Below are positions 1,739 to 50,977 of a DNA stretch of 50,977 bases, piece by piece. Where the stretch lies: NCBI GenBank assembly GCA_949286705.1, contig CASEDF010000009.1, positions 1-50,977 on the forward strand, written 5' to 3'. The notes under the pieces are model-generated. The model was not told the DNA's origin and ran no database searches. It was given only the letters and a program-made list of their open reading frames with translations. The translations under genes were made by a program, and so were the position numbers. Source of the stretch: an uncultured bacterium. Lineage in GTDB: Bacteria; Cyanobacteriota; Vampirovibrionia; Gastranaerophilales; Gastranaerophilaceae. Each line of letters begins with the position of its first letter. The stretch's first letter is position 1.

Positions 1739-3055
1739 ATGGTCAAAAATACGTACTATGACTACTTTTTACTCAGGGGGGGGGGCAGTAGTTTAACCTC
1801 CGGTCATGCTGAACTGGTTTCAGCATCTCATAATAAAGAGATTCCGAAACCAGTTCGGAATGACAAATATGTGAGCGAAGCTCACATAAACAACAAACCT
1901 CACTTTACTCACGCAAAACGTGCTGCGTTTACTCTGGCGGAAGGTGCTACGCACACTCCTCGTAATGACATGAATACTTACCCTCTACCTCTGGGAGAGG
2001 GTGGCGCATTGCGCCGGGTGAGGGTTAAAGTGGCTTTCACTCTGGCTGAGGTGTTAATAACCCTCGGCATTATCGGCATTGTTGCTGCCATGACTATTCC
2101 GACACTTGCCGCTAATTACCAGAACAAAACATGGAATACTTCCGCTCAAGTCTTTGAACGGAAACTTGATGAAGCACTTAAAACCATGAACACTCAACAG
2201 GTTCTTGCAGGGTATTCCTCTACTGCGGAATTTGTCGGTGAACTGTCTAAGCACTTCAAAATTAATAAAATTTGCAACAGTGATGAGATTAATTCTTGTT
2301 TTGCAGATAAAATCCACTGGGGCAAAAATGACCTTGAAGTTAGTACCGAAAACGTAAAAACTGCCGCAGGATTAGGGCAACATGACTGGAATAGTGAAGC
2401 TGTAGGGGTGCAATTTGCCAACGGTACTTCCGGTATTATCGCTTACAATCCTGATTGCAGAGAACAACCCTTTACAAATCAATTCACTGGTACAAGCTGT
2501 ATTGCTCTTTTATATGATACCTCCGGCTTTAAGAGCCCGAACAAAGACGGCAAAGATTTGAGATATATCAATGTTACCGAAATTGACGGGCATAAGCCCT
2601 GCTCTTTTGAACTTTCTGACGGTACTTGCTTTACAATACCTTTCAATGCAGATCCGCTTTCTGTAGATGAATGTGAACAAACAAAAGATGAGCTTGGGAT
2701 TCCTCATTGTGATGTTCAAAATAGGCTTTGGGCAGGTTATGCAAAAGTATGTGGAGGTACGAATAAAATGCCCACAATCAACCAACTTGCTGCCTTGGCA
2801 AAAGATTTATACGGAGAAAATGTTGATGGAAATGGTGTGCTATACGCAACTTGGAATCAAGATATTGTTGAAAGGCTAGGTGTTAATACGTCATTAGGAG
2901 GTTTTTATATTTTTGCAGGAGAACCATGTGACACTGATAATCTAGCATACGCACGTAGTTATACTTCATTTGTAACTGGCGGTGGTTGCGTAATGCGGGA
3001 ATCAGATGTTCCTGGAGCATCAGAATCAATGTATGGAGTTTGCATTGCAGATTAA
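1739..3055 (+). CDS. Type IV pilin-like protein with tract- and repeat-filled leader (ON frame)
   Basis: The ORF codes 438 residues. The start at 1739 has a strong GGAGG site ten bases upstream. Codons 13-16 lie in a run of ten G (LLRGGG). The next 80 residues are translated repeat DNA: a 27-base-arm palindrome, a first FTLAE copy near residue 64 that leads nowhere, a CTCGTAATGACA element and a GAGAGGG palindrome. The true prepilin motif, VAFTLAEVLITL, starts near residue 98, followed by the hydrophobic helix (IIGIVAAMTIPTL) and a large Cys-containing globular domain. Its mature N-terminal part is very close to the truncated gene at 50504. A 99-residue leader is far longer than the usual 5-25, so processing is uncertain. 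The role is inferred as a secreted or pilus-tip pseudopilin-like protein; partners are not in the window. Confidence 0.7.
   Translation: MVKNTYYDYFLLRGGGSSLTSGHAELVSASHNKEIPKPVRNDKYVSEAHINNKPHFTHAKRAAFTLAEGATHTPRNDMNTYPLPLGEGGALRRVRVKVAFTLAEVLITLGIIGIVAAMTIPTLAANYQNKTWNTSAQVFERKLDEALKTMNTQQVLAGYSSTAEFVGELSKHFKINKICNSDEINSCFADKIHWGKNDLEVSTENVKTAAGLGQHDWNSEAVGVQFANGTSGIIAYNPDCREQPFTNQFTGTSCIALLYDTSGFKSPNKDGKDLRYINVTEIDGHKPCSFELSDGTCFTIPFNADPLSVDECEQTKDELGIPHCDVQNRLWAGYAKVCGGTNKMPTINQLAALAKDLYGENVDGNGVLYATWNQDIVERLGVNTSLGGFYIFAGEPCDTDNLAYARSYTSFVTGGGCVMRESDVPGASESMYGVCIAD
1776..1785 (+). repeat. G10 homopolymer tract inside the pilin-like gene
   Basis: Ten consecutive G in an AT-rich genome, 12-16 codons after the start codon. 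At this length the downstream prepilin motif is in frame. Tracts of this kind are known sites of slipped-strand mispairing. Related tracts occur at 30438-30446 and 50544-50552. Confidence 0.85.
1803..1864. repeat. Palindromic repeat element inside a coding leader
   Basis: Two 27-base arms (1803-1829 and 1838-1864) are inverted copies with four mismatches around an eight-base loop. The arms begin GTCATGCTGAAC and end GTTCGGAATGAC. It is read in frame as HAELVSASHNKEIPKPVRND. Its form resembles protein-embedded palindromic elements known from other bacteria (for example Rickettsia); the assignment to a family is inference. Confidence 0.7.
1981..2015. repeat. Compound palindrome inside the pilin leader
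   Basis: CCCTCT (1981-1986) pairs with AGAGGG (1996-2001), and GGCGC (2003-2007) pairs with GCGCC (2011-2015). The GGGTGAGGGT that follows recurs in part near 3213 after another palindrome, which suggests one dispersed repeat family. It is translated as PLPLGEGGALRRVRV. Confidence 0.6.
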
Positions 3056-27333: not shown

Positions 27334-28127
27334 AAATTTCAGCGGTACAAATGTGTGCCGCCATAGGAAATAAAAAATCCAATTTTGAAAAAATAAAACA
27401 ACTTACATCTTCAATTCAAAAAACTGATGTAATTGTTTTGCCTGAAGTCTGGACTGCCGGCTGGTCATGCGAAGATTTTATCGGCAGTGCCGAATATCTT
27501 GAAAATTCCGAAACAATTGAGTTTTTAACAAAAATTGCAAAAGAAAAAAACAGCAATATAATCGGCGGAAGCTTCATCCGAAAACTTGACGAAAAAACTT
27601 ACTTCAACACATGTCCTGTAATAGACAGACACGGAAATTTAAAAGCTTTATATGACAAAAATCATCTGTATTCATATTACGGGTGCGATGAAGGGAAATA
27701 TATAACAAAAGGCAAAAATCCCGTTATGCTGACTCTTGACGGTATAAATTTCGGACTTACAATCTGCTATGATATACGTTTTCCTGAAATTTACCGTGCT
27801 TACAGAAAATCAGGCGCAGATATTTTTATAAATTGTGCTGCATGGGCATCGACAAAACCAATGCAATGGGAGATGATGACCCGTTCACGGGCAATCGAAA
27901 ATCAAACATTTATGGTTGCTGTAAACCAGTTCGGTCCTATGAAAAATAATGAAACAAATCTTGGACATTCAAGGATTATTGACTATAATGGGAATGTCCT
28001 TTCCGAAATTTTATCCGGTGAAGGTGTAATACAATCGGAATTAAATCTTAATGAAATGTACAAATTCAGGGAAAAGTGTACTATATTAAAAGATATTAAA
28101 GAGTCTTACGAGGTAAACATTATATGA
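27315..28127 (+). CDS. Carbon-nitrogen hydrolase (nitrilase family, omega-amidase-like)
   Basis: The 270-residue product has the Glu-Lys-Cys triad of the nitrilase superfamily: Glu in VLPEVWTAGW (near 42), Lys in YDKNHLYS (near 114) and Cys in LTICYDIRFPEIYR (near 151). It resembles omega-amidase/NIT2 enzymes, which hydrolyse alpha-keto acid amides. The start at 27315 lies within the upstream gene, so the two are translationally linked. The dacB-like gene overlaps its stop by four bases. Confidence 0.87.
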   Translation: MEEKKIKISAVQMCAAIGNKKSNFEKIKQLTSSIQKTDVIVLPEVWTAGWSCEDFIGSAEYLENSETIEFLTKIAKEKNSNIIGGSFIRKLDEKTYFNTCPVIDRHGNLKALYDKNHLYSYYGCDEGKYITKGKNPVMLTLDGINFGLTICYDIRFPEIYRAYRKSGADIFINCAAWASTKPMQWEMMTRSRAIENQTFMVAVNQFGPMKNNETNLGHSRIIDYNGNVLSEILSGEGVIQSELNLNEMYKFREKCTILKDIKESYEVNII

Positions 28128-29464
28128 AAAAATTCCTAAACCTTTTATTAACACTGGTTCTGACACTATCGGCCGCTAATGCCGCAGGTATTGACAAAGC
28201 AATCTCTGATTCAAGGATTAATAAAGGTGCTGTTTCAATTTCAGTCAGGAATATTAATACCGGCAAAATTTTATATGAACTAAACAGCGATAAGCCGGTT
28301 CCGCCGGCATCCACACTAAAATCAATAACTTTAGCGGCTGCTTTAAATGAACTCGGCAAAGACTACGCTTTTTCCACCGAATTATACAAAAATACAAATA
28401 ACGAATTAATTTTAAAACTTGGAGCAGATCCTTTTTTAAAGGCACGTGATTTAAGGACTCTTTTAAAAACGGCGTATGAAAAAAATATTATTGAACCCAA
28501 AGCTTTCTATCTGGATGATACAATTCTTGATAAGACAGAATGGGGCGAAGGCTGGCAGTGGGATGATGATTTAAATCCGCTTATGCCTAAATTCAGCGCC
28601 TACAATATTGATAATAATCTACTCAAAATAATAGTGGAACCAACAACTAAAGATGCACCGGCACAAATTAAAATGGATGTTTTTTATCCGACAACGTTTG
28701 TAAATTTAGTCACAACAGGCACTTCAAACGATATTAAAATAACAAGGAACAACAATATAGCACCTGATGTTTTAAATATAGAAGGCACGATTTCAAAACG
28801 CGAAGAAAGGGAAATACCGATAAATCATCTTAAAAGATATTTTATTTTAAGACTTGAAGATGCAATTCGTGATGAAAAAATTGAATACTACGGTAATTTT
28901 ACGAATATTAAACTTCCCGAAAAAAACGTATATGAAGTAGCTAAATTTACAACACCTATGGAAAATGCGGTTAACTCAATAATGAAAGACAGCAGCAATA
29001 TGACGGCGGAAACTGTATTTAAAATAGCGGGAGGGCATTATTCAAACAAATCGGGCAGCGCTGAAGATGCCGTTAAAATGCTTTTGGATTACTGCAAACA
29101 ACTCGGCGTAAATACCGATAAAATCAGAATTGTTGACGGAAGCGGCGTTTCAAAAAACAACCTTGTGACATCAGATTTTATGACATCATTTTTAACCGCA
29201 CAGTATAAAAATGATCAGACATATAAAGATATTTTTGCATCAGCCGGAGAAGGAACCTTAAAAAACAGAATGCTGTACTTCAGGCAATATCTTAAAGCAA
29301 AAACAGGAACTCTCTCCGACGTGAGCGCTATTACCGGTTTTCTGACAACATCCAAAGGGACCCCAGTGGCGTTCAATATAATGATAAATGACCCCAATGC
29401 AAAAACTTCAGACAAAAAAATGCTTGAAGAATATATTTTGAGAGCAGTTCATACATCATATTAA
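28124..29464 (+). CDS. dacB: D-alanyl-D-alanine carboxypeptidase/endopeptidase (PBP4, DacB type)
   Basis: The 446 residues begin with a signal peptide (KKFLNLLLTLVLTLSAANA). The penicillin-binding motifs are all visible: SxxK as STLK (near 63-66), SxN as SKN in DGSGVSKNN, and KTG in KAKTGTLSDVS. This fits class C low-mass PBPs that trim or cut peptidoglycan cross-links in the periplasm. It ends the acyltransferase-amidase-dacB operon and overlaps the stop codon of the convergent pilin-like gene by four bases. Confidence 0.9.
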   Translation: MKKFLNLLLTLVLTLSAANAAGIDKAISDSRINKGAVSISVRNINTGKILYELNSDKPVPPASTLKSITLAAALNELGKDYAFSTELYKNTNNELILKLGADPFLKARDLRTLLKTAYEKNIIEPKAFYLDDTILDKTEWGEGWQWDDDLNPLMPKFSAYNIDNNLLKIIVEPTTKDAPAQIKMDVFYPTTFVNLVTTGTSNDIKITRNNNIAPDVLNIEGTISKREEREIPINHLKRYFILRLEDAIRDEKIEYYGNFTNIKLPEKNVYEVAKFTTPMENAVNSIMKDSSNMTAETVFKIAGGHYSNKSGSAEDAVKMLLDYCKQLGVNTDKIRIVDGSGVSKNNLVTSDFMTSFLTAQYKNDQTYKDIFASAGEGTLKNRMLYFRQYLKAKTGTLSDVSAITGFLTTSKGTPVAFNIMINDPNAKTSDKKMLEEYILRAVHTSY

Positions 29465-30473
29465 TCATTACAGCTTCGTGCTTTGTCCCATCCGAGTTTT
29501 TCAGGGCAATGGAGATAATCCATATTGCCGTTATATATTACCCATGCAGCACATTTGCCGCCGCCATGCTCATATACACGGGCTCCCAGACATTGATTCT
29601 CAAACTTGTCTGTCCATATAGTCTCGTTTGCAGAACCTGCAGGCATCAAACCGTCCGTATAGACATAAAAATCAAAAGCATCTATATTCAATGTGTTTTT
29701 CCCATGGATTCCATCAATATCAATAAGAATACTCCCGCAAGAAAGTCCATAAGAGCCATACTCTATATTATTATCCGATAACGAAGTCATAGCCATATTC
29801 TGGGTGCAGTTGCCGCCTATAGGCGACACCCTGAAACTCGCCCCGTTTTTTAGAACATATGAATTATTTACTCCGTTAAAACCAGCCTGTAAATTGCTGT
29901 TATACAGGTTTTTATATTTGCTCGGCAAACATCCTTTAGCAACTTTTTCACATTTTTTTAGTAGCTGTACATATTCAGGCAAAAGCGTCTCAAATTTTGA
30001 CATACGAGCATCGTTAGAAGCTCCCCACATGTTAACATTACCTTCATTAACTATCATAAGCCTTATAGCTTCATTCAGGATACTATAAGTTTCCTTTAAC
30101 TTTGTAACGGTCTGCTTTTCGGTATAATTACCGATAAGAGTCGGCATTGTCATGGCTGCAACAATGCCGATTATTGCCAATGTTATTAGGACTTCGGCGA
30201 GCGTGAAGGCGGCTTTTTTAACGTAAATAGCTTGAGTGAAGTGAGTTGAGTAAAGCTTTCTGTCGGCATAGTAATGCCGACCTACATTTCTGTTACTTCT
30301 TAGTGCCTTAGTATCATAGTATCTTAGTATCTTTTCCCAAAATATACCGCCCAAACCCTTGTTAACTTCATGATCCGTTAAATTTTCTCCAACTTCCTGT
30401 TGGTCGGGTCCGGCGGCACGCCGGCTTAGAGGAGTCGCCCCCCCCCGAGATTCTCTTTTTTCATATTTTTCAC
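29461..30473 (-). CDS. Type IV pilin-like protein, out of frame at a G9 tract (OFF state)
   Basis: A GTG at 30473, with AAGGAG seven bases upstream, begins the peptide VKNMKKENLGGGRLL and hits TAA right after a run of nine G (30446-30438). With one more G the frame continues open through about 80 codons of repeat DNA to KKAAFTLAEVLITLAIIGIV (near 30215-30160) and on to the stop at 29461. A TTG at 30354 is the first start codon of the downstream frame but has no ribosome-binding site. The mature part has a typical pilin helix and a Cys-bearing domain that ends CPEKLGWDKARSCND. The length of 1013 bases is not a multiple of three, in line with a one-base shift. It may be a phase-variable gene, or an assembly error in the tract. 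Confidence 0.7.
30262..30281. repeat. Palindrome GTCGGCAT-AGTA-ATGCCGAC
   Basis: Perfect 8-base arms (30262-30269, 30274-30281) in the leader of the pilin-like gene, read in frame as GRHYYADR. Similar in outer bases and length to 3101-3119. Confidence 0.65.
30410..30424. repeat. GC-rich palindrome CCGGCG-GCA-CGCCGG
   Basis: Perfect 6-base arms, far richer in GC than the surroundings, in the leader 14 bases from the homopolymer tract. It looks like a REP-type element. Confidence 0.6.
30438..30446 (-). repeat. G9 (C9 on plus strand) homopolymer tract
   Basis: Nine G in the reading direction of the pilin-like gene. Flanks on the plus strand read AGTCG-tract-GAGATT, identical to those at 50544-50552 although the two host genes run in opposite directions, so the tract belongs to a movable repeat. 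Confidence 0.85.
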
Positions 30474-30574
30474 CGCGATTCTCCTTTTTAATAAAAATAA
30501 CACATTTTATAATTTATTGCAAGAAAGTTAAATTTAATAAATTTTTACAATTAGAAAATCTGAACAACTTATGC

Positions 30575-30580
30575 TAAACT
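30575..30580 (+). promoter_or_regulatory. -10 box of the glycosyltransferase gene
   Basis: TGCTAAACT: an extended -10 ending nine bases before the ATG at 30590. A start site 6-7 bases downstream would leave a leader of at most three bases. Confidence 0.35.
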
Positions 30581-30589
30581 AAATATATT

Positions 30590-31441
30590 ATGGAACCTTT
30601 AGTCAGCGTTATTACAACAACACATAATATAGTAGAAAAAGGTCAGGCGGATGACTTCAGCCTTTTAATAACCCTGCTTGACATGCAGACTTACCCGAAT
30701 ATCGAACACATTATCATTGATAATGCATCAACCGATGACACCGTTGTTTTGCTAAAAGACTACAAAAATAAAGGCTACATACAATTCTATTCAGAACCTG
30801 ATACCGGAAAATTTAATGCTTTTAACAAAGGCATTTTGAGAGCTAAAGGCAAATACATATCCTTTATCAGCTGTGATGACTTTTACCACGACATTACGGC
30901 AATTACTGATTTAGTCAATCTGATGGAAGCAGAAAACGCTGATTTTTCTTTTTCTCCATCATACTGCAGGCATTCTGAAGGTTTTGTATTTTTATTCGTG
31001 CCGGCTATGTATAACGCTTTTCAGGTCATGCCTTGCCCGCGGCAAAGCATGTTTTTCAAAAAATCCGTGCTTGAAAAAGAAAACTACTTTGACGAAAAAT
31101 TTAAACTTATGTCTGATTATGACCTTATAGTAAGATTAATGATGAAAAAGTATAAGTCTGTATTTTTTGACCAGAACTATACCACATATAAAGTCGGTGA
31201 AAAACTTACCGTAAACCCTCAGGCGGGTGATAATGAAGCAAAAGCGATTTTCTTCAAAAATTACAGAAGTCTTTATCCTCTGAATGAAGAAATATTGGAA
31301 CGAATGGTTAAGATTTCAGATTTTCCGAAAGAATTACTGGACAAACTTGCCACAAGATTTCCTGAGGAAGATAAAGATTTATTTTATGAACGGTGCGAAC
31401 AAATGCACCAATTAAGATTAAATGCGCTACAAAATCGATAA
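30590..31441 (+). CDS. Family 2 glycosyltransferase
   Basis: The 283 residues have the GT-A fold opening VSVITTTHNIV, the IDNASTDDT loop and a DxD-like CDDFYHD near residue 95. Family 2 enzymes move a sugar from a nucleotide donor to a lipid or glycan. The YSEPDTGKFNAFNKGILRAKGKYISF region is a close match to surface-glycan transferases (seen as SEPDTGKFNAFNKGI). There is no membrane helix. A Gfo/Idh oxidoreductase follows 33 bases later, which fits a sugar-modifying pathway. Confidence 0.88.
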   Translation: MEPLVSVITTTHNIVEKGQADDFSLLITLLDMQTYPNIEHIIIDNASTDDTVVLLKDYKNKGYIQFYSEPDTGKFNAFNKGILRAKGKYISFISCDDFYHDITAITDLVNLMEAENADFSFSPSYCRHSEGFVFLFVPAMYNAFQVMPCPRQSMFFKKSVLEKENYFDEKFKLMSDYDLIVRLMMKKYKSVFFDQNYTTYKVGEKLTVNPQAGDNEAKAIFFKNYRSLYPLNEEILERMVKISDFPKELLDKLATRFPEEDKDLFYERCEQMHQLRLNALQNR

Positions 31442-47309: not shown

Positions 47310-47339
47310 AAAAAGAGCCTCTTTTAAGAGGCTCTTTTT
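47310..47339. terminator. Bidirectional terminator between the SLH and pilin-like genes
   Basis: AAAAAGAGCCTC and GAGGCTCTTTTT form a perfect 12-base stem around TTTTAA. The stop codon of the convergent pilin-like gene (47338-47340) overlaps its edge. Confidence 0.88.
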
Positions 47340-47754
47340 AATAAGCAGTAAAATTACCTCCTGCAGTACCGCTTTGAGACTGCGAATCTCTTGCATTATC
47401 AATATATTGAGTACACTGATCCTCAGTCACGTTTTTATAAGTTTTTTCATTACAACCGGAATTTGCCCACTCACATTGATAAACATAACAATCACCATAA
47501 ACCACTTCAGACTCACCAGAGTTCCCATCACCCTGTCCGGGGGTGGAATCAGGAACTTCATAGGTAACTTCTGGCTGCAAGTTTTCTGAAACATTTGCCC
47601 ATATATCTACCGCTGTATCGTAACCCATATAATATGCATCATTTTCCACGCGTTTCATCTTATTCAAAGTTATGGGCAATGTCACAAGAACCACTAACGT
47701 TATAATTATTAAGGTTATTGTTAACTCTCCCAGTGTAAAGCCATTACTTTTCAT
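47338..47754 (-). CDS. Type IV pilin-like protein, short leader
   Basis: The 138-residue product starts MKSNGFTLGELTITLIII: a five-residue leader, cut site G-F, Glu at +5 and a hydrophobic helix. The globular part carries Cys residues (DCYVYQCEWANSGC) and a Gly/Ser-rich end. GGGGG lies upstream of the start on the minus strand. There is no homopolymer tract between start and motif, so it is probably stably expressed, in contrast to the three tract-bearing genes. Confidence 0.82.
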   Translation of the reverse strand: MKSNGFTLGELTITLIIITLVVLVTLPITLNKMKRVENDAYYMGYDTAVDIWANVSENLQPEVTYEVPDSTPGQGDGNSGESEVVYGDCYVYQCEWANSGCNEKTYKNVTEDQCTQYIDNARDSQSQSGTAGGNFTAY

Positions 47755-50503: not shown

Positions 50504-50977
50504 ATGTTGAAAAAGGTTGTGCAAAAAGCGGTTCAGATAGTCGCCCCCCCCCGAGATTATCACTATATAAGGGTTTCATCTTAACAAAAAGTGCTGCACG
50601 CACTCCTCGTAATGACAAACCTCACGCTACTCACTTCACTCACTTGACTCACGCAAAACGTGCTGCCTTTACTCTTGCAGAAGTCTTAATTACCCTCGCA
50701 ATTATCGGCATTGTGGCGGCTATGACCATTCCAACGCTTGTCGCTAATTACCAGAATAAAGCCTGGAATACTTCTGCTCAAGTCTTTGAAAGAAAACTTG
50801 AAGAAGCTCTCAAAACTATGAATACTCAACAGGTTCTTGCTGGTTACTCCTCTACTGCCGATTTCGTCGGGGCGTTAGGCAAATATTTCAAAATTACTAA
50901 AATCTGCTCCAATGATGATATCATGTCCTGTTTTGAAGACAAAGTTCGTTGGGGGAAAAATGAACTCGAAGTCAGTA
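50504..50977 (+). CDS. Type IV pilin-like protein, out of frame at a C9 tract (OFF state), cut by window end
   Basis: The ATG at 50504 (AAGGAG upstream) begins MLKKVVQKAVQIVAPP. After nine C the frame turns into RDYHYIRVSS and stops at 50582-50584. With one more C the frame is open with no stop from the tract through 38 codons to THAKRAAFTLAEVLITLAI and to the end of the window. The mature part is very close to that of 1739-3055 (both have QVFERKL-EALKTMNTQQVL and LAGYSSTA). The leader between tract and motif carries the same TPRND and THAKRAAFTLAE blocks as 1739. The complete gene lies beyond the window. Confidence 0.72.
50544..50552 (+). repeat. C9 homopolymer tract inside the pilin-like gene
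   Basis: Nine C, 13 codons after the start codon. Flanks AGTCG and GAGATT are identical to the plus-strand flanks at 30438-30446. One extra base would restore the frame. Confidence 0.85.

Follow-up and report, generated by a model that had tools for sequence, protein, structure and literature searches.

The window, by which we mean the whole 50,977-nt stretch of DNA analysed here, carries on its minus strand a pilin-like gene whose reading frame is broken, shortly after its start codon, by a run of nine G. Two further tract-bearing loci lie on the plus strand. The features that the analysis refers to are:

30481–30486, minus strand: Shine-Dalgarno sequence AAGGAG (from the sequence), 7 nt before the GTG
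30471–30473, minus strand: start codon GTG, 27 nt before the tract and followed by eight further codons
30438–30446, minus strand: homopolymer of nine G (G9), which is the proposed switch and needs one more G to be in frame
30426–30437, minus strand: conserved sequence flanking the tract, CGACTCCTCTAA, containing the stop of the OFF frame (15-aa peptide)
30208–30437, minus strand: leader, stop-free in the pilin frame only and built of repeats common to other leaders
29461–30207, minus strand: body of the pilin-like gene, from FTLAEVLITL to the stop, with a TIGR02532 match
28124–29464: carboxypeptidase-like gene, named from its sequence by eye
30590–31441: glycosyltransferase-like gene, named from its sequence by eye
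1739–3055, plus strand: sister locus, ON, with a start, G10 at 1776–1785, an open leader and FTLAEVLITL at 2036
50504–50977, plus strand: third locus, of the C-tract class, OFF, with a start near 50504, C9 at 50544–50552 and FTLAEVL at 50668; it is one C short and is cut by the contig end

The original prediction had placed here a pilin-like gene in the OFF state at a G9 tract, behind a GTG with a good ribosome-binding site. Both points were confirmed, OFF being the state of the assembly consensus; all ON and OFF calls given here are consensus states of assemblies. The 27-nt spacing between start and tract is the commonest in the genus (71 loci). Past the G9 the sequence reads CGA CTC CTC TAA, and the stop that had been called immediate is present, although the word is slightly loose, as the TAA is the fourth codon past the tract (30428–30426). 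Adding one G gives 79 stop-free codons reaching FTLAEVLITL at 30207, where about 80 had been announced, and the protein, of 249 residues counted from the A of AFTLAEVLITLAIIGIVAAMTMPTL, ends at 29461. The locus had thus been read correctly, but its scale had been missed: it is one of about fifty copies.

In the genome, of 1.85 Mb in 41 contigs, we found 63 G or C runs of at least nine bases, while simple base composition at the 37% GC of the window would by arithmetic give less than about one G9+ run in a whole genome. The FTLAEVLI motif occurs in 68 copies, and about 53 of the 63 tracts sit 31–700 nt upstream of it. We distinguished three switch classes, each with one locus inside the window: C-G9-CGACTCYYCYAR, to which the focal locus belongs and whose OFF frame terminates as M(N8)GGGRL(L/S)-stop; C9 after AAAAGCGGTTCAGATAGTCG; and an A-flanked G10–11 followed by CAGTAGCTTAAC. 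All 47 open-leader loci have a Shine-Dalgarno sequence and a start upstream of the tract, a criterion also used to select them, and the start statistics are partly so by construction, given that starts were picked by a Shine-Dalgarno rule. The arrangement is that of contingency loci, in which the frame is set by the length of a pure simple repeat inside the 5' coding region. Of the named genomes in which the tract-plus-flank element occurs, nearly all belong to Candidatus Gastranaerophilales MAGs, and the pattern had no match in viral contigs.

Some genes depart from this arrangement. The window itself holds a short pilin-like gene that has no tract (47338–47754, minus strand; MKSNGFTLGELTITLI) and whose GFTLGEL-type relatives have G9 switches in genomes G002 and G001. 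A different G9–10 element, followed by TACCATACTTTA or TGCCATACTTTA, lies about 270 nt ahead of pilins with their own ATG (MTKRFG) at L011 and L012 (G000 C1:95112 and C1:102529) and at L082 and L088 (G011), and its frames never join the pilin. At L049 (G000 C16:19587–19624) a G13 and a C-rich run face each other within an inverted repeat, which sets this locus apart from the pilin switches.

Among the open-leader loci of five species of the genus, tract lengths of 8, 9, 10 and 11 occurred at 8, 128, 17 and 5 loci, respectively. One register is common to 149 of these 158 loci, with nine G or C off by one and ten in frame. At length 9, 126 of the 128 loci are one base short, and 15 of the 17 with length 10 are in frame; two bases are missing to the next in-frame length at half of the eight length-8 loci and at four of the five with length 11. 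Length nine makes up 81% in the genus, and in-frame loci about 11% in the assemblies. The modal length varies by genus while the default stays one short (9 in g1, 10 in g9). Nearly all tracts of G055 (g9) are G10 or C10, one base short, with a few G11 in frame, and the G10 tracts of G132 (g27) are also one base short; G135 (g10), which has FTMAEILLSL pilins, shows lengths of 10–15 in mixed states. G and C tracts share their modal length within a genus (9/9 in the focal genus, 10/10 in g9), as expected of a process acting on DNA. A programmed frameshift would have a fixed slippery site and a fixed offset in all homologues; here the offset varies with length among orthologues, and one offset dominates.

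Single genomes of the family hold as many as 176 G9+ tracts and as many as 192 pilin motifs. G155 and G068 have about 115–142 pilin motifs with just 4–7 G9+ tracts, and the 30 pilins sampled from G155 were without a tract, mostly behind ordinary short leaders and in a few cases behind long repeat-filled ones. Since G155 is pilin-rich yet tract-poor, pilin expansion and tracts are separable. At five loci of G132 (L161, L162, L165, L173 and L177) there are stops past the tract and the pilin has its own ATG, so the tract cannot gate those pilins by frame. In G135, more than ten contigs start at most about 65 bases from a G-tract, as if the assembly had broken there through length mixtures, repeats or sequencing dropout.

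The leader had been expected to be open beyond chance and to lack stops in the corrected frame only. Leaders of at least 20 codons were open in the pilin frame at 41 of 49 loci of this genome and in the other two forward frames at none (0/49 each), with 42 stops in the pilin frame against 338 and 453, a depletion confined to the corrected frame. Stops common in that frame in relatives would have spoken against the prediction; they are rare in G011 (13, against 325 and 353) and absent in G004 (0, against 84 and 134). As for the leader being kept open by selection, openness and frame bear this out, whereas its amino-acid sequence is just weakly constrained, with dN/dS of about 0.3–1, that is, nearly neutral. 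Stop-free leaders reach up to 184 codons. Most leader DNA (88%) is common to other leaders, and 1121 of 1197 same-strand matches keep the frame. We rejected the idea that these are repeats scattered over the genome: the rest of the window had no match, and another 332 kb of DNA had matches at 28 places, including some decayed switch loci. In G004 and G012 most leaders have about 33 codons, which suggests that the long leaders of this genome grew from a short one by gaining in-frame repeats. Judged from sequence, the leader behaves as if openness and frame alone matter, which fits its removal by prepilin peptidase at the predicted cleavage site.

The pilin body has the marks of a prepilin, namely the motif A/FTLAEVLITL with E at +5 and a hydrophobic segment. 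The focal pilin scored 19.1 bits with TIGR02532 IV_pilin_GFxxxE (cut-off 16.3) and 18.2 with Pfam N_methyl, under the cut-off of 21.2, and FTLAE was invariant across 32 aligned sequences. A structure model (pLDDT 75) gave a helix at 4–56 followed by strands. The structure search returned no clear PDB pilin match, with a best Foldseek E of 1.9 and, on a second look, a best Z of 4.5 to an unrelated protein; the Neisseria pilus 8p3b matched the model weakly (Z 2.7, rmsd 4.8, 120 aligned over 1–232). A melainabacterium from the termite gut has been reported to carry pilA-D and pilT (PMC5877343). For orthologue pairs, dN/dS of the pilin body was 0.06–0.33, both-OFF pairs included, with dS saturated in some pairs. 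The bodies are under purifying selection even when both orthologues are OFF, and OFF genes are thus probably expressed at least some of the time, because a dead gene would not keep such a body.

Tract length differed between orthologues, with a predicted change of ON/OFF state, between species rather than strains. Comparisons were syntenic, with 1.3 kb of upstream DNA aligned, and three assemblies stood under two labels (G004 is E08_bin114, G011 is BRZ_BN_bin58 and G012 is the SI.B5 bin). One syntenic trio has G9 OFF in G011, G10 ON in E21_bin158 and G11 OFF in E08_bin114, with pilins 74–82% identical. G10 ON in G000 stands against G9 OFF in G011 (upstream 93% identical over 1.3 kb, pilins 74%), G9 OFF in G012 against G10 ON in BRZ_LN_bin14 (pilins 85% identical), and G10 ON in G011 against G9 OFF in E08_bin45, whose pilin is incomplete at the end of the DNA compared. 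Of the pairs compared, G000 L013 and E08b45 L364 have the most similar flanks, but they were discarded as a pure one-G switch, since a two-base indel at the tract edge separates them and both are OFF. The G004 orthologue of the window's pilin has a C9-class switch where the focal locus has G9, and it too lacks one base.

The site of the focal gene, between the carboxypeptidase-like and glycosyltransferase-like genes (29461–30590; L384–L396), holds different, unrelated pilin-like genes in relatives. Those with G9 or G11 tracts encode 422 aa in G002, 343 aa in G045, 110 aa in G001 and 255 aa in G007. In G010 the tract, read by eye, is interrupted; G011 has about 1.5 kb in which no tract was detected, and G009, G012 and G006 have a spacer of 56–141 bp alone. 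Different switches and pilins at one site indicate turnover of both switch and pilin in an unchanging location, and suggest that this interval is a pilin cassette exchange site.

We consider it quite probable that these loci form a large, default-OFF pilin repertoire governed by slipped-strand phase variation, with a disposable leader cut by prepilin peptidase; slippage in living populations, expression, leader cleavage and biological role are what we infer from the loci. Each of the about fifty contingency loci would run from promoter, Shine-Dalgarno sequence and start through a short 5' peptide to a pure G or C tract, and only one tract length, modulo three, would leave the prepilin readable. 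At the modal G9 or C9 the ribosome would halt just past the tract, leaving the gene OFF. Slipped-strand mispairing at replication would insert one base (G10) and join start, leader and prepilin, turning it ON; single-base slips can thus probably turn individual pilins on and off. The leader, N-terminal to the prepilin cleavage site, would be removed by the peptidase, would merely have to stay open and in frame, and could tolerate in-frame repeats. Each cell would then express a small, changing subset of the large repertoire.

Campylobacter G-tracts show an insertion bias at 8–9 and a deletion bias at 10–11, with a peak at 9 (PMC8224891). The stationary state that we computed from those published rates has 43% at nine and 24% at ten, and the off-by-one uniformity found here (81% at nine; nearly all at ten in G055) is tighter than this neutral, Campylobacter-like model, perhaps also through selection for the OFF state or through slower slippage. 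MutS1 was found in G000 and in most tract-rich genomes, which means that slippage may be slow. For this reason, and since the weak-MutS1 genera g24 and g25 are almost tract-free, we rejected the idea that the tracts arose because mismatch repair had been lost. MutS1 matches were much weaker in g24, g25 and g29, and G149 (g29) still has 55 G9+ tracts.

The uniform offset is well accounted for by programmed recoding, in which RNA polymerase slippage or -1 ribosomal frameshifting would draw a steady, low amount of prepilin from every gene and the length would be held one short on purpose. Nearly every tract being exactly one short across genera of different modal length, the conservation of OFF genes and the presence of MutS1 all agree with it. 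Yet lengths of 8–11 occur in the same register, in-frame ones included, orthologues differ in ON/OFF state, and g10 has lengths of 10–15 with mixed states; moreover, in any one genus glycine (GGG) and proline (CCC) runs are equally long, an equality that decoding does not call for. We therefore regard recoding as the sole explanation as rather improbable, although slippage and recoding could operate together. A wider version is unlikely too: a lineage-wide default-OFF library in which the tracts are both slow DNA switches and sites of RNA-level slippage, giving a low basal dose of every pilin, and in which species swap entire cassettes of switch, leader and pilin at fixed positions of the chromosome.

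On another reading, translation of the pilin would begin internally, for instance at the TTG at 30354, and the tract and upstream start would be irrelevant. That TTG is in the pilin frame, and a minority of loci (L011 and L012 of G000, several of G132) do have a pilin ATG after stops. However, the TTG has no proper Shine-Dalgarno sequence, and internal Shine-Dalgarno sequences with a start fall in the pilin frame at 8 of 47 loci, compared with 14 and 4 for the two other frames, which is chance level; stop-free leaders of such length would also be left unexplained. Translation from 30354, which would have overturned the original prediction, is hence very improbable. Homopolymer errors of the assemblies are likewise very improbable. 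A systematic one-base undercall would give an identical pattern, and some contigs do end at tracts, but contig names of the relatives (k127, NODE) point to short-read assemblers, with which nine-base runs are usually right, G10, G11 and G12–15 were called too, and the modes differ between genera.

Homopolymer phase variation is known already. In the gut commensal Bifidobacterium breve, as here, the frame of a pilin gene is interrupted by a G-tract whose usual length is out of frame, and slippage brings the two halves together; the in-frame form of its sortase-dependent pili was enriched about tenfold in mice (PMC9187656). B. breve has one or two sortase-type pilus clusters, in contrast with the about fifty type IV pilin-like genes found here, each with one tract. 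Campylobacter jejuni also switches frame, with tracts of 7–13 in 12–29 genes per genome and modal lengths of 9–10 (PMC4965091, PMC8224891), strain NCTC11168 having 29 poly-G/C loci (PMC4965091); its genes are mostly unrelated surface or modification genes with varied ON lengths, unlike the one family and one register described here. Mycoplasma gallisepticum vlhA resembles our set as a large surface-protein family with a repeat per member and one favoured ON number (PMC6258824). The vlhA repeats are promoter GAA repeats acting on transcription, whereas ours are intragenic homopolymers acting on the reading frame. Neisseria opa and pilC share independent slippage switches on paralogous surface proteins and poly-G switching of pilus biogenesis, but the opa repeats are pentanucleotides in about a dozen genes, and pilC is a tip adhesin outside the pilin family. 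Poly-G phase variation in Neisseria is documented (PMC5953494). In the open-access literature, with most subscription papers and preprints outside the search, we found no report of phase variation in Gastranaerophilales or Melainabacteria; as far as we found, such a pilin switch set is undescribed in Gastranaerophilales.

For annotation pipelines, these loci mean that dozens of real genes will be called truncated or wrongly started. They also suggest that repeats can land with little penalty in a prepilin leader that is cleaved off. If our reading is true, an uncultured and widespread gut lineage gains a large combinatorial repertoire of surface filaments, in which the density of switches in one gene family stands out, and mixtures of tract lengths within each host are predicted in ordinary gut metagenomes. 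This would bear on the ways in which these bacteria, relatives of cyanobacteria that do not photosynthesise, deal with host immunity, phages or niches.
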